Shown: positions 1 to 35,287 of the stretch, in pieces
How the letters are laid out: every line of letters starts with the position of its first letter
Position numbering within the stretch: the stretch's first letter is position 1
Source: Marinicella sp.
GTDB lineage: Bacteria; Pseudomonadota; Gammaproteobacteria; Xanthomonadales; Marinicellaceae
Assembly: GCA_028284365.1 (NCBI GenBank)
Contig: JANQRW010000075.1
Location: forward strand, 1 to 35,287
DNA: 35,287 nucleotides
Direction of reading: 5' to 3'
The notes under the pieces: generated by a model
The model's database searches: none
Seen by the model: only the letters and a program-made list of their open reading frames with translations
What the model was told of the DNA's origin: nothing
Translations under genes and position numbers: made by a program

Positions 1-95
1 AAGTGCACGCATGACAGCATTCAAGCAAGACTTATTGCCTTTCAGGCAAACCGTCATGCTTTCATTGCTTATGCTGGTCAAGCTGCTCAGCAGCT
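1..95 (-). repeat. Structured 66-bp repeat element, copy 1 (one unit plus leader hairpin)
   Basis: Read on the minus strand this matches the three plus-strand elements at 7304, 25214 and 35204. A leader hairpin occupies 81-95 (stem AGCTGC/GCAGCT, loop TGA), followed by TTGACCAGC and one 66-bp unit (72 down to 7). Inside the unit the conserved hairpin lies at 29-55: outer GAC/GTC, inner stem TTGCCT/AGGCAA, loop GAA. These stems differ from the other copies but still pair. A further unit would begin at position 6 (GCACTT), so the element may continue beyond the window. It lies about 120 bp past the stop codon of the upstream minus-strand gene, in the same orientation as that gene. This copy is the most diverged. 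Confidence 0.8.
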
Positions 96-215
96 TTCCT
101 TCAGCATTATAGTGAAGTTCACGCGATAATTGAATTGTAATGTCCCCAGCTTACAGGAATTCCAGTTGTTTGAGGTGTGTTGTTATTTGGACAAGTTCAG
201 AAAACCAGTCACTCA

Positions 216-6457: not shown

Positions 6458-7308
6458 ACAAACCAAAATCAATTACTTTTGAAACCCGCTATGGCAACAT
6501 AGCTGCCTTGCAGTGGGGCGCCGGTAATAAAAGTAAGGTATTGGCATTGCATGGTTGGTTAGACAATGCTGCCAGCTTTTGGCACTTAGCACCTTTATTG
6601 GAATCAAAAGACATGGAAATCACTGCGATTGATTTTCCTGGACATGGCCATTCAGCTCACCGTGCACCTGGACACAACTATGGCTTCATTGATTATGTCA
6701 TGGACATGCAGGCAGTAATTAAACAAGTCGATCAGCCTGTTGATCTGTTGTGCCATTCCATGGGTGCTGCCATTGCAGTGATGTATGCAGCAGCCTTTCC
6801 AGAACAGATTAGAAAAATGGTGTTATTGGAAAATATCGGCCCACTGCCTCCCTATCAGCCAGGTAAGGCTGTTCAGTCATTGCGTGAAGCTTTAAAGTTA
6901 TGGGACAAGCATTCACTGCAACACAAACGCTTTTATCCCAACATTGATCAAGCCATCAAAGCACGACAAGAGGCCACCCCCATGGACAGTGATGTTATCC
7001 GACCTATGGTCGCAAGGGGCTTGTGCGAAACCCCTCAGGGTTATCATTGGCGCACTGATAAGAGATTGCGCCTGCGCAGTTTTTTTCGCATGGCCGAACA
7101 ACAAATTCAAGAATTCCTTGCAGCCACAACTGTACCAACCCAGTTGATCATTGGCGAACCTCGCACCAAAGCATTGCAATACCCGATGTTCGATGAACGT
7201 CTAAAAGCCTTAAATCCAGACGAATGCCTAAAAATCTCAGGTGGCCACCATTTGCACATGACCGATGCCAAACAAGTTGCCAGAGCTGTGCTCAAATTTT
7301 TAAGCTGA
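6454..7308 (+). CDS. Alpha/beta hydrolase (SERHL-like)
   Basis: A 284-residue alpha/beta hydrolase. I start at ATG 6454, which overlaps the uppP stop as ATGA; a longer open frame from 6400 lies wholly within uppP. Visible are L-H-G-W-L-D-N at 32-38, D-F-P-G-H-G-H-S at 60-67, the nucleophile elbow C-H-S-M-G-A with Ser102, and a C-terminal S-G-G-H-H-L-H-M carrying the catalytic His. The D-x-P-G-H-G-x-S and E-N-I-G-P-L-P-P-Y segments resemble the serine-hydrolase-like (SERHL) branch. Substrate unknown. Last gene of the plsC-led run; its stop codon TGA (7306-7308) sits at the leading edge of a repeat element, which would form its 3' untranslated region. Confidence 0.87.
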   Translation: MNKPKSITFETRYGNIAALQWGAGNKSKVLALHGWLDNAASFWHLAPLLESKDMEITAIDFPGHGHSAHRAPGHNYGFIDYVMDMQAVIKQVDQPVDLLCHSMGAAIAVMYAAAFPEQIRKMVLLENIGPLPPYQPGKAVQSLREALKLWDKHSLQHKRFYPNIDQAIKARQEATPMDSDVIRPMVARGLCETPQGYHWRTDKRLRLRSFFRMAEQQIQEFLAATTVPTQLIIGEPRTKALQYPMFDERLKALNPDECLKISGGHHLHMTDAKQVARAVLKFLS

Positions 7309-7458
7309 TAATCACCTCAACCAGCGCAGGTAATGAAAGATTGGCGGTTTTATCGGAGATAAAGAAGCCTGTCTTGAGTACCGTGGCGCGTGCAGGTAAT
7401 GAAAGATTGGCGGTTTTATCGGAGGTAAAGAAGCCTGTCTTGAGTACCGTGGCACCTG
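7304..7458 (+). repeat. Structured 66-bp repeat element, copy 2 (two tandem units)
   Basis: Leader TGATAATCACCTCAACCAGC is followed by two near-identical 66-bp units, 7326-7391 and 7392-7457; I see a single clear internal difference (A/G in the right stem arm). Each has the shared hairpin, at 7343-7369 and 7409-7435: outer GGC/GCC, stem TTTATC, loop GGA, right arm GATAAA in unit 1 and GGTAAA in unit 2. The unit 2 change turns a T-A pair into T-G, which is a G-U wobble if the plus strand is the RNA. The leader hairpin seen in copies 1 and 3 is not formed here. The element begins at the stop codon of the upstream hydrolase gene and is followed by a terminator, so it lies in that gene's transcript. 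Confidence 0.9.
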
Positions 7459-7483
7459 TACTTGTTTAGGCAAGTAGGTTTTT
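7459..7483 (+). terminator. Rho-independent terminator after the plsC-led operon and repeat
   Basis: Stem TACTTG (7459-7464), loop TTTAGG, stem CAAGTA (7471-7476), GG, then TTTTT (7479-7483). The preceding CC could pair with the GG after the right arm, with small bulges. It directly follows the second repeat unit. From 7484 to 7665 I see no gene, only a second small inverted repeat GGCTGT/ACAGCC (7494-7509) without a T-run. Confidence 0.6.
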
Positions 7484-25080: not shown

Positions 25081-25213
25081 TGAATTAACCCCTAATGAAT
25101 TAAATCTTGCGAACAGAACTGGCTCACAAGATGAATCTATTATCAAATCGCGGCAATTTTACAAGATTTTAAAGTCTTTTCATAGCCATGGCTCAATTTA
25201 ATCCACAATGGAT

Positions 25214-25425
25214 AGCCGATGATCGGCTCGACCAGCGCAGGCAATGAGAGCATGGCGGTTTACCTGAAAGGTAAGAAGCCTTGCTTGAGTGTCGTGGCGT
25301 GTGCAGGTAATGAAAGATTGGCGGTTTTATCGGAGATAAAGAAGCCAGTTTTGAATACCGTGGCGCGTGCAGGTAATGAGGGCATGGCGGTTTACCAGAA
25401 AGGTAACAAGCTTTTTGCTTGAATA
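25214..25425 (+). repeat. Structured 66-bp repeat element, copy 3 (three units plus leader hairpin)
   Basis: Leader hairpin AGCCGA (25214-25219), loop TGA, TCGGCT (25223-25228), then CGACCAGC and three units beginning at 25237, 25303 and 25369, exactly 66 bp apart; the third diverges after about 50 bp. Conserved hairpins lie at 25254-25280 (TTACCT/AGGTAA), 25320-25346 (TTTATC/GATAAA) and 25386-25412 (TTACCA/AGGTAA, with GGC/GCT outer stem). So two stem types alternate in one array. It lies between the divergent petA and the DegS-like gene, in the orientation of the latter, which starts 173 bp downstream. From 25426 to 25597 I see no gene or convincing promoter. Confidence 0.9.
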
Positions 25426-25597
25426 ACGAAGCTCACACTCGGCCAAGCAATCTATAAAGCTTTTTTGAACTCTGAAATATCATAACAGTCAAAGACCCAA
25501 GCATTGACTTAATTCAGATATACTTTTTTACTTTGTCACCCAAATATGCGGTGATTTCTTATGTACAAAAAGTCAACTTTACCCTATATTTAGCTAC

Positions 25598-29070: not shown

Positions 29071-29490
29071 ATGCGAAATTTATCCAAACAGACTGCCCTG
29101 TGCGTCTCGGTGTTGTTGAGTACAACACCTGTTATGGCTCAAAACCAACTCGAACTGATACTTGATGGCCATGCCTACGGGGTTAACAGCAATGTAACAT
29201 CTAATTTAGCCAATAAAACCATCACCGTTACTGACTCCGAAGCAACCAATTGTTTGCGCCCAGGTAACTTAACACCTCTAAATAATGCTGGTAACTTTAC
29301 TTTATTAACCAACAATCAAGCCATTGGAATCGTTCAGAGTCGCTATTGGGTAAAAAATAAGCTGCTTTTTTTGACCAGCGAAACCAGCAACCTAATCTGC
29401 AACAATGGCATTTTTGTTGACCGAATCTTCAAAGAAGGTTTTGGAGAATTCATCAGTCCGTTTTTAATTTTTGCTGATGGCTTTGATTAA
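29071..29490 (+). CDS. Small exported protein with C-terminal FLIFADGFD motif
   Basis: A 139-residue protein with signal peptide (1-23, ending V-M-A-Q). I do not recognise the mature domain: short beta strands around N-K-T-I-T-V-T-D-S, with Cys in T-N-C-L-R and L-I-C-N-N that could form a disulfide. It ends FLIFADGFD at the stop; 15 residues earlier D-R-I-F-K-E-G-F-G looks like a second, weaker copy of the same motif. Starts 88 bp after the patatin gene with a weak Shine-Dalgarno. Function unknown; possibly a surface-exported product. Confidence 0.7.
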   Translation: MRNLSKQTALCVSVLLSTTPVMAQNQLELILDGHAYGVNSNVTSNLANKTITVTDSEATNCLRPGNLTPLNNAGNFTLLTNNQAIGIVQSRYWVKNKLLFLTSETSNLICNNGIFVDRIFKEGFGEFISPFLIFADGFD

Positions 29491-32440: not shown

Positions 32441-34339
32441 ATGAAAAAGACATTTATAACTGCGGCCCTGCTTTCAGTGGCTGCACCATCCTTGGTGGCT
32501 GGCAAGCTGACCATGGAAGAACACACCATGCAGGCGGTTCTCCAGATGCAAGAAGCCAAAGAAAAACTTGGAGGGCCGGTTGGAGGGTCGATTGTAACAG
32601 TCGGTGACGATGTGCAATGTGACTTCAGATTAGGCACATCAAGAATTCAAGATGCCATCGATGCCGGTAACGATGAAATCAGAATAGCAGACTCGACCTA
32701 TGAGGAAAACCTATTGATAGATGACATCAGCGTCATCTTAAAAGGTGGCTATGCAAGCTGTGCAGACGCCGCAAACGATGTCACCAATAACTCAAAACAA
32801 ACCATAAGTGGCGTACCAGGCGCGGGAGCAGCAACCATAATTATCCAAGGTAATACCCAAAGAAATACCGTGACCCTGGAACGGTTGACTATCGATGGTG
32901 GTACATCTTCTGGTTTTCTACAGGGCGGAGGAGTCTTCACCATTACAGCCGACTTGGCTTTGAATATAAACAATTCGACCATAAGTTTCAACGAAGGCAG
33001 TGCTGGCGGCGGTTTGGGCGTTTTTGCTGGCAACACTGATGTTGTCTTATTTAACACCATAGTTGCTTCAAACACATCTGACACAAGTGGTGGTGGAATT
33101 TGGTGTAACGGTAGTAATTCTTCGATTTTTTATAACGACGACGGCGGCTTATCAGGAGTTTTCAACAATGTCGCTTCAAACGGTGACGGTGGTGGAATTT
33201 TGATTGAAGCCGGGTGTGTATTAACCAGTTATATTGGCAGACCGTATCCTGTTGGGTTTCTTGATTTAAGAGGAATAGTATCCAACACAGCCACTGGCAA
33301 TGGTGGTGGTCTTGCGGTCAGATCAGGTGGAACCGCATTCTTAAATGGCGGTTTATTCTGCTTCTTTTTCTGCTTAGGAGATAACACCCGCCCGGCTAAT
33401 ATTGACTTTAATACAGCTGACAGTGATGGTAATAATGATGGATTTGGTGGCGGCATATATGCCACTGACCCAAATACCACAGTTAATCTGCTAAACACTT
33501 ACATCAGTGATAACGAGGCTCAATCAGGTGGTGGTATTGCTGTAGAAAATCAGGCCAATCTTGTGATGAGATCATCATACGTTTTTGGCACCTGCTGGAA
33601 CCCTGGCTCTTGTAGCCAGCTCAGTAATAACCAATCTGCACAAACAGGATTCCCTACACGCGGTGGCGGCTTATATGCCACTTCAGGGGCTGTGGTTGAT
33701 ATTTCTAACACCGAATTCAGAAACAACCGCGCCGATTTCGGAACCGCAATGTATACATTAGCCGAGGTTGCAGATGCCACTGTTACCAACCTTGATGTAG
33801 AAGGTTCTTTAATTGTGAATAATGGTGATGACGCCAATACCGACTGGTCGGATATTGATACCATCAGAATCAACGGTGGCGAAGTGCTGCTTGATTACAA
33901 CACCATTGCTGATAATGATGTCGGTATTGGCGGAGCCAATATCAACAACACCGGAAGCGTAGAAATATTCTCATCAATCATCCACAACACTGATGGCGCG
34001 CTGGTTTATAGAGGTGATGTTCAACCCAACACAACACTTCCATATGAGTGTTTGATGGTTAATGAAACTGGTTCTCTGCCTGTTGAACCTGAAATCGTGG
34101 CTGATGATCCAGAGTTTATCGACCGAGCCAATGGTGACTTTCATTTGAATGCGGCCATTTCTCCAGCCATCGACTTTTGTACCACACTGAATGCTTCGAC
34201 GCCTGATTTTAATGACTCAGATAATGAAGCACGTGGCTTTGATGACCCTCTGGCCACTAACTTCCAAGGCCCATATGATGTCGGTTATGACGAAACCTAT
34301 CAAAATGACATCATTTTTGAAGATGACTTTGATGGCTGA
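32441..34339 (+). CDS. Exported beta-helix protein with C-terminal IIFEDDFDG motif
   Basis: A 632-residue protein with signal peptide (1-21) and good Shine-Dalgarno (GAGGTG). The body has at least eight G-G-G-[ILV] turns (G-G-G-V-F-T-I, G-G-G-L-G-V-F, G-G-G-I-W-C-N, G-G-G-I-L-I-E, G-G-G-L-A-V-R, G-G-G-I-Y-A-T, G-G-G-I-A-V-E, G-G-G-L-Y-A-T) flanked by N-N/N-T-A, as in right-handed parallel beta-helix proteins and chlamydial Pmp-like repeats. The end (D-P-E-F, G-D-F-H-L-N, S-P-A-I-D, D-V-G-Y-D-E) fits the choice-of-anchor-Q domain, followed by N-D-I-I-F-E-D-D-F-D-G. Likely surface or extracellular; adhesin or polysaccharide lyase cannot be decided. Confidence 0.85.
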   Translation: MKKTFITAALLSVAAPSLVAGKLTMEEHTMQAVLQMQEAKEKLGGPVGGSIVTVGDDVQCDFRLGTSRIQDAIDAGNDEIRIADSTYEENLLIDDISVILKGGYASCADAANDVTNNSKQTISGVPGAGAATIIIQGNTQRNTVTLERLTIDGGTSSGFLQGGGVFTITADLALNINNSTISFNEGSAGGGLGVFAGNTDVVLFNTIVASNTSDTSGGGIWCNGSNSSIFYNDDGGLSGVFNNVASNGDGGGILIEAGCVLTSYIGRPYPVGFLDLRGIVSNTATGNGGGLAVRSGGTAFLNGGLFCFFFCLGDNTRPANIDFNTADSDGNNDGFGGGIYATDPNTTVNLLNTYISDNEAQSGGGIAVENQANLVMRSSYVFGTCWNPGSCSQLSNNQSAQTGFPTRGGGLYATSGAVVDISNTEFRNNRADFGTAMYTLAEVADATVTNLDVEGSLIVNNGDDANTDWSDIDTIRINGGEVLLDYNTIADNDVGIGGANINNTGSVEIFSSIIHNTDGALVYRGDVQPNTTLPYECLMVNETGSLPVEPEIVADDPEFIDRANGDFHLNAAISPAIDFCTTLNASTPDFNDSDNEARGFDDPLATNFQGPYDVGYDETYQNDIIFEDDFDG

Positions 34340-35136: not shown

Positions 35137-35203
35137 AAGATTATCACCTCGTAAACTAATATTTGTGTTTATTTTGGTAATGTTAATGAAGCTAACTCAT
35201 GGA

Positions 35204-35287
35204 AGAACCGGTGATCAGCTCAACCAGCGCAGGCAATGAACGCATGGCGGTTTACCTGAAAGGTAAGAAGCCTTGCTTGAATGCCGT
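35204..35287 (+). repeat. Structured 66-bp repeat element, copy 4 (cut by the window end)
   Basis: Leader GAACCGG-TGA-TCAGCTC (35205-35221) followed by AACCAGC and a unit starting at 35229; the conserved hairpin is at 35246-35272 with TTACCT/AGGTAA, loop GAA and outer GGC/GCC, the same stem type as the first unit of copy 3. The leader hairpin is weaker here (two mismatches). The sequence ends 59 bp into the unit, so the number of units is unknown. It is on the far side of the SDR gene's promoter, opposite in strand to that gene. Confidence 0.85.

Follow-up and report, generated by a model that had tools for sequence, protein, structure and literature searches.

Elements of the IS200/IS605 type, like their non-autonomous derivatives, carry terminal hairpins and insert beside a short invariant sequence, leaving the target unduplicated; the elements themselves are expected on the G-rich lagging-strand template. 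Rickettsia palindromic elements (RPEs) are palindromic insertions that lie inside protein genes, keep the reading frame and are longer than the repeats known as REPs. REPs themselves are short interspersed palindromes of 20-40 bp with GT pairs and complementary stem variants, described in a report that also names RPEs (PMC3733652). The REP/BIME/REPIN repeats and their RAYT (TnpA-REP) enzymes, as treated in PMC3733652 and PMC8266576, comprise high-copy palindromes, many of them intergenic, whose folded single strand is recognised by an HUH enzyme. The hairpin module reported here is likewise a short, high-copy interspersed palindrome with GT pairs and many intergenic copies, and we infer a corresponding recognition of its folded strand. 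It differs from REPs in its length of 66 nt, which falls outside their range, in its four-stem fold with three conserved internal loops, in carrying GTAG or CGTC letters, in those copies that have them, between two stems instead of at a free end, and in being seldom beside RAYT genes and sometimes within RAYT-like genes. Its arrays run head to tail at exactly 66 nt with few inverted neighbors, unlike REPs, whose dimers are mostly head-to-head or tail-to-tail. The module resembles RPEs in being a palindromic insertion longer than REPs, some copies of which lie in genes; however, it occurs in different bacteria, many of its copies are intergenic or lie within a larger repeat, and its genic insertion is known here from RAYT-like genes. 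With the IS200/IS605 type it shares a hairpin and insertion beside a fixed short sequence, whereas its whole unit is one hairpin, preceded by A and followed by GT, and no linked transposase was found. Finally, it has the covarying stems, conserved loops and sense-strand folding of the structured non-coding RNA classes in Rfam, but it has no family match, no consistent gene orientation, and is insertion-like. A literature search of open-access papers found no description of the element.

The window, meaning the whole 35,287-nt stretch analysed, is contig JANQRW010000075.1, one of the 91 contigs of a 3.11-Mb Marinicella sp. genome (G000, hereafter the own genome). The initial annotation had reported seven units in this window, each with the layout GGC, GGT, a 6-bp stem, a 3-nt loop, a 6-bp stem, 3 nt and GCC. 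The covariance model R1 recovered the same seven as copies of a single 66-nt module, in four groups at 9-74 (minus strand) and at 7324-7455, 25235-25434 and 35227-35287 (plus strand). The minus-strand module (R1 84.6 bits) carries GAC/GTC in place of GGC/GCC in the outer stem of the described layout, as had been noted, and is adjoined at 76-99 (minus) by a 5' leader hairpin, GGAAAGCTGCTGAGCAGCTTGACC, of which there are variants elsewhere that keep their pairing. A tandem pair with a period of 66 nt occupies 7324-7389 (85.1 bits) and 7390-7455 (83 bits), the second module having a T-G wobble in its inner stem (the 7409 unit). The triple array is preceded at 25210-25233 by the leader hairpin GGATAGCCGATGATCGGCTCGACC (one mismatch to the leader pattern) and consists of modules at 25235-25300 (83 bits; fold z -3.37), which covers the originally described 25254-25280, at 25301-25366 (83 bits), and at 25367-25434. 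This third module is degraded (61.7 bits; alignment A1, below): its 3' arm is 2 nt longer, and its inner stem, TTACCA/AGGTAA at 25386, holds an A·A mismatch beside the loop that went unmentioned in the initial annotation, which had read all other inner stems correctly. The T-G wobble in the outer stem of this unit is real, as is that of the 7409 unit. A degenerate leader hairpin at 35202-35225, identified by sequence and in the leader count, precedes the last module (35227-35287; 78.3 bits), whose 3' part is cut by the contig end. The repeat is beyond chance: a fixed-letter pattern of the module has five matches in the window and none in 100 shuffles. Both ends of the contig (window 1-74 and 35227-35287) lie in or beside a module and several further contigs of the genome stop in a module, indicating that the repeat breaks assembly.

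The module folds into four stems (22 pairs). From the outside, P1 (4 bp) is followed by the 1x3 loop A/GTN, P2 (GGYA/TRCC), the loop AATGA/TGAA, P3 (about 8 bp), the loop GRT/GAA, P4 (6 bp) and a triloop that is mostly GNA. The stem described initially is therefore real and forms only part of this structure: its GGC/GCC is the inner end of the middle stem of about 8 bp, and the two outer stems, GCGC/GCGC and GGCA/TGCC, covary as well. Length, loop and flank counts were taken from all full-length matches, namely 68 of 76 in the own genome, 33 of 35 in other species of the genus and 31 of 31 in other families. The length is exactly 66 nt in 51/68, 24/33 and 19/31 of these, respectively, with near-complete variants of 64-69 nt. 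A GNA apical triloop is present in 39/44, 16/22 and 14/16 of the distinct 66-nt modules, and within each of the three sets 13 of the GNA-loop modules have C(GNA)G. The RNA counterpart of a GNA mini-hairpin is weaker. In DNA, GNA mini-hairpins have been described as extraordinarily stable (PMC4686876). The prevalence of this loop is consequently a pointer towards DNA, short of proof.

To evaluate the fold, a search with the loop letters yielded 74 distinct 66-nt stretches, 60 of which matched either reference in at least 38 letters. Three of the 60 (L007:1491-1556, L040:2214-2279 and L043:2258-2323) were removed by hand before alignment, leaving an alignment, A1, of 57 rows with modules of the own genome and of G015. 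A2 contains modules from other species of the genus (35 matches, 32 distinct) and A3 modules from other families (31 matches, 28 distinct). In A1, 88.7% of cells are paired under the four-stem fold, and 18 of the 22 pairs change on both sides among the 57 distinct copies, so the compensatory change reported for a few units is borne out and extends to copies from other species. The covariation score of A1 is 0.492, a value reached in 0 of 500 shuffles, against 0.185 when shuffled and at most 0.104 when the structure is slid. A2 is 94.2% paired with a covariation of 0.596 (0.157 shuffled), and A3 is 96.4% paired with 0.578 (0.176 shuffled), again with 0 of 500 shuffles reaching either value; the copies in A2 and A3 were absent from model building, yet in both sets the alignment was fitted to the model and so leans towards it. 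RNAalifold recovers the inner part of the fold from A1 unaided and omits P2. In all three alignments the unpaired columns are better conserved than the paired ones. Compensatory change thus preserves the fold across three bacterial families, and the structural family is secure. Such covariation is what is expected of a structured RNA, and folded single-stranded DNA would display it equally.

The initial annotation had also proposed that the wobble pairs point to RNA, and their strand bias had been set beforehand as a check. The bias persists at scale: on the sense strand, G·T cells outnumber A·C cells by 83:16 in A1, 43:7 in A2 and 37:3 in A3 (92:22 when all 60 rows replace the 57 of A1). Positions with more G·T than A·C number 19, 14 and 12 in the three alignments, and the reverse is seen at 0, 3 and 1. 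The sense strand also has the better folding energy in 109 of 113 modules with RNA parameters and in 99 of 113 with DNA parameters, and four sense modules have fold z-scores between -3.4 and -6.2, compared with -2.2 for one antisense module. The G·T excess identifies the sense strand as the strand that folds. In single-stranded DNA, too, G·T is the milder mismatch, so the bias is no specific sign of RNA, and the wobble excess does not tell RNA from single-stranded DNA. The part of the proposal that concerns the folding strand therefore holds. The insertion behavior and the lack of an orientation preference described below speak against a role carried on mRNA.

As a DNA query, the array at 25230-25430 finds 42 places in its own genome. 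R1, built from the 57 distinct rows, has at least 135 matches there with E-values no higher than 1e-3; since scoring covered 150 candidates, this number is a minimum. Within the genus, R1 finds the module in 17 of 18 genomes, the own genome counted, and in genomes from other genera of the same family it finds it in 0 of 15. Among genomes sampled from the order, 37 of 151 have matches under stricter filters, spread over three families; 22 of these 37 come from outside the genus and belong to two other families, and 114 of the 151 have no match. A 91-nt DNA query reaches 4 of 61 genomes including the own, two of them through a single short match. Among the 18 genus genomes, this query finds 3 and the structure model 17, while longer composite queries reach further species. 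Searches of viral contigs, phages and plasmids for the element gave no match. Genome G121 has arrays of three and six units with a spacing of exactly 66 nt; at its locus L286, module arrays lie among adjacent long ORFs with similar starts (MNLWDELQRRNVFRIALFYIVSAWVVVQVAE and similar).

Many modules lie within a larger composite element made up of a 5' leader hairpin, a variable set of hairpin modules, and a 3' end. The leader, GGAGAGCCGATGATCGGCTCGACC, is found at 43 places with up to three mismatches (reversed control 0) and the 3' end, CCCAAGAGYATTCCTT, at 113 places with up to two (control 1). Paired changes are seen in the leader too, such as AGCCGA/TCGGCT, AGCTGC/GCAGCT and AGTTGA/TCAACT; a search by flank and loop letters gave 35 distinct matches, in 33 of which six or more of the seven pairs are intact and in two of which a single pair is left. 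A search with the exact leader pattern returned contigs of one named metagenome-assembled genome, in a collection from which close relatives of the own genome may be absent. Genome G017 has 16 listed matches to one composite element; they are of similar extent, at about 598-848 of the query, and show 73-76% identity to the query.

Comparison of related loci revealed sites with and without the insert in DNA that matches otherwise, as expected of a mobile insertion. The triple array lies in the gap between petA and DegP. Nine relatives keep both flanking genes around a gap that is shorter by 77-246 bp and contains no R1 match (0/9); the stretch missing from them corresponds approximately to 25207-25465 on the plus strand. 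In G015, a piece of the composite element that includes the 3' end lies at a different point of the same gap. Distinct copies of one backbone have an empty length of 22 nt (four copies), 23 nt (two) or 24 nt (one), or a filled length of 88 nt (four) or 89 nt (one), and the difference between like forms gives a net gain of 66 nt. At full-length modules without a preceding module, the adjoining 5' base is A in 40/47 own-genome, 27/28 genus and 23/23 other-family cases, and GT follows directly in 38/47, 24/28 and 19/23. At two compared sites, the base or dinucleotide 3' of the module is unlike that of the empty site, so insertion is not perfectly clean. Movement by insertion is nevertheless well supported. 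Lone modules at L130, L140, L143, L291, L301 and L293 have common flanks, GAGCGAA before and GTGAGTGG, GTGGAGGG or GCGTGGAG after, and perhaps sit in the loop of another repeat; no empty copy of this backbone was present in the loci searched. A REP-like second backbone was considered and not established, as only L140 was found and no empty copy.

Gene context was counted for 40 own-genome stretches with 62 termini, 14 of which lie inside a crudely called ORF and 16 of which have no gene called on one side. The 46 termini with genes on both sides are tandem in 23 cases, divergent in 13 and convergent in 10, against a background of 172, 76 and 52. Composite elements show no orientation preference relative to neighboring genes, their sense agreeing with that of the tandem genes in 12 of 23; the gene upstream of a leader is co-directional in 32 of 56. 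A cis-regulatory or terminator element was rejected on the basis of these background-like contexts and the 12/23 sense agreement. With respect to replication, own-genome stretches of at least 9 kb have the sense strand on the C-rich side in 43 of 60 cases, and the composite-element ends compared with GC skew split 26 stretches to 7, with 5 ties (p 0.0013). A hand count of 20 stretches from other genomes showed no strand bias for modules, the strongest module being on the C-rich strand in 9 and the G-rich strand in 11, and the bias is therefore not general. Elsewhere in the window, the predicted proteins at 1540-1794, 29071-29490 and 32441-34339 resemble one another in their acidic and aromatic C-terminal tails (LIFEDEFE, IFADGFD and IFEDDFDG), possibly a shared sorting signal.

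The relationship of the module to RAYT-like genes was assessed by searching 81 loci with one intact RAYT-like protein, a search that covered genes of this kind. A module lies inside or at the edge of such a gene in 6 of the 81 (L040, L137, L145, L289, L292 and L303), a rate that is not unbiased because the loci were chosen by score. At L289 the module is on the strand opposite to the gene. Modules within RAYT-like genes are accompanied by stops or frame changes. The positions are varied and come from species of different families (L145 1501-1741, L137 1281-1566, L040 626-691, L292 1032-1099, L303 1049-1116); some recur in more than one species. For two species with a module at the same place, the flanking coding segments give a pS of 0.656 and a pN of 0.189 over 81 codons and the modules are 58/66 identical. 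This is either an old insert in a gene still under selection or related modules that landed twice at one spot. A module lies within about 1.5 kb at only 1 of the 30 RAYT loci. RAYT and module counts do not go together: no RAYT match was obtained in G000, with its 135 modules, or in G006, with 3, while G004 has 7 RAYT matches and no module. PF01797 had no match in the own genome at an E-value of 1e-3, and the broken RAYT-like gene in L040 (Pfam E-value 7e-4) is below the cut-off.

Three other explanations were weighed against a mobile strand of DNA. The main rival is RNA function, whereby the module would be transcribed, with tandem copies per transcript, and act as a protein-binding, sRNA or processing element selected at the RNA level and spread by other means. 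The G·T excess on one strand in all three alignments, the sense-strand folding energies and z-scores, the conserved internal loops and a tandem 66-nt register that recurs in another family are all consistent with this. Conversely, copies sit at unrelated places and in transposase genes on both strands, and neither gene orientation nor context departs from background. Rfam release 15 likewise gave no match in the window at gathering and a single below-gathering match of chance level (E 0.75) in 20 loci, so that no known RNA family fits. We consider a structured RNA possible, with the odds clearly against it.

An element that is a REP in the strict sense, a GTAG/CGTC palindrome that is merely long and moved by its own RAYT, is improbable. 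Interspersion in more than 100 copies and the GT pairs and covarying stems that PMC3733652 describes for REPs would suit it, as would a few inverted neighbors (L290 985-1051 and 1092-1157; L275 8036-8101 and 8135-8200). The letters after P2 even include CGTAG in 25 of 57 rows of A1 and CGTCG or CGTCA in 16 of 31 in A3, but this tag is located between two stems, P2 and P1, on the 3' side and has no free end, the outer flanks being A and GT; the unit is also 66 nt instead of 20-40, and, where a REP would flank its RAYT gene, a module is near the RAYT gene at only 1 of the 30 loci examined. A protein-coding tandem repeat of 22 residues, with the fold as by-product, can be given hardly any credence. 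The 66 nt do equal 22 codons, one frame is open across the array at 7224-7469, and in the GC-rich other-family set most frames are free of stops (stops in 1, 0 and 0 of 16 antisense; 5, 12 and 2 of 16 sense). Despite these mostly open frames, stops in the frame of the 7224-7469 ORF (17 of 57 own-genome and G015 modules, 11 of 22 genus modules), the covariation of paired columns and the existence of modules of 64, 65, 67, 68 and 69 nt disfavor a coding repeat.

The best explanation in our assessment, with a probability of roughly one half, is that the repeat is a non-autonomous mobile 66-nt hairpin that moves as a folded single DNA strand, most likely through an HUH/Y1 (RAYT-like) transposase acting in trans. 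The enzyme that carries the folded strand would recognise its conserved loops, and the RAYT-like transposase is the candidate mover; odds are about even that an HUH enzyme transports the module as single-stranded DNA. Landing sites would comprise the hairpin loop of the larger interspersed element, intergenic DNA and RAYT-like genes, the head-to-tail arrays would arise from repeated insertion or recombination, and selection for the fold would amount to selection for being mobilised. The covariation, the better conservation of unpaired columns, the A and GT flanks, the empty and filled backbones and the nine of nine empty petA-DegP gaps argue for the mobile hairpin, as do the six loci among 81 with a module in or at the edge of a RAYT-like gene, the GNA loops and the strand bias of the composite element in the own genome. 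It is weakened by RAYT and module counts that do not track, by the single RAYT locus in 30 with a module nearby, by a strand bias that is not seen elsewhere and that favors the C-rich strand, not the G-rich one as for IS200/IS605, by the imperfectly clean insertion, and by a G·U tolerance that suits RNA at least equally. A fuller version, in which a self-contained folded-strand unit of 66 nt targets hairpin loops and RAYT-like genes, builds head-to-tail arrays in fixed register and lets its stems drift through loop-only recognition, seems to us unlikely. On that view the module may also be an insert that RAYT-like genes put up with, as the coding segments next to it in the two species with a shared position still show purifying selection.

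If the mobile hairpin reading is right, the module would be a natural example of a mobile hairpin that is maintained by its structure instead of its sequence, and elements kept in this manner can evade ordinary repeat finding. Its many natural variants provide a means to ask what a folded-strand enzyme or an RNA-binding partner needs, and the same variants bear on whether wobble bias alone separates RNA from single-stranded DNA.
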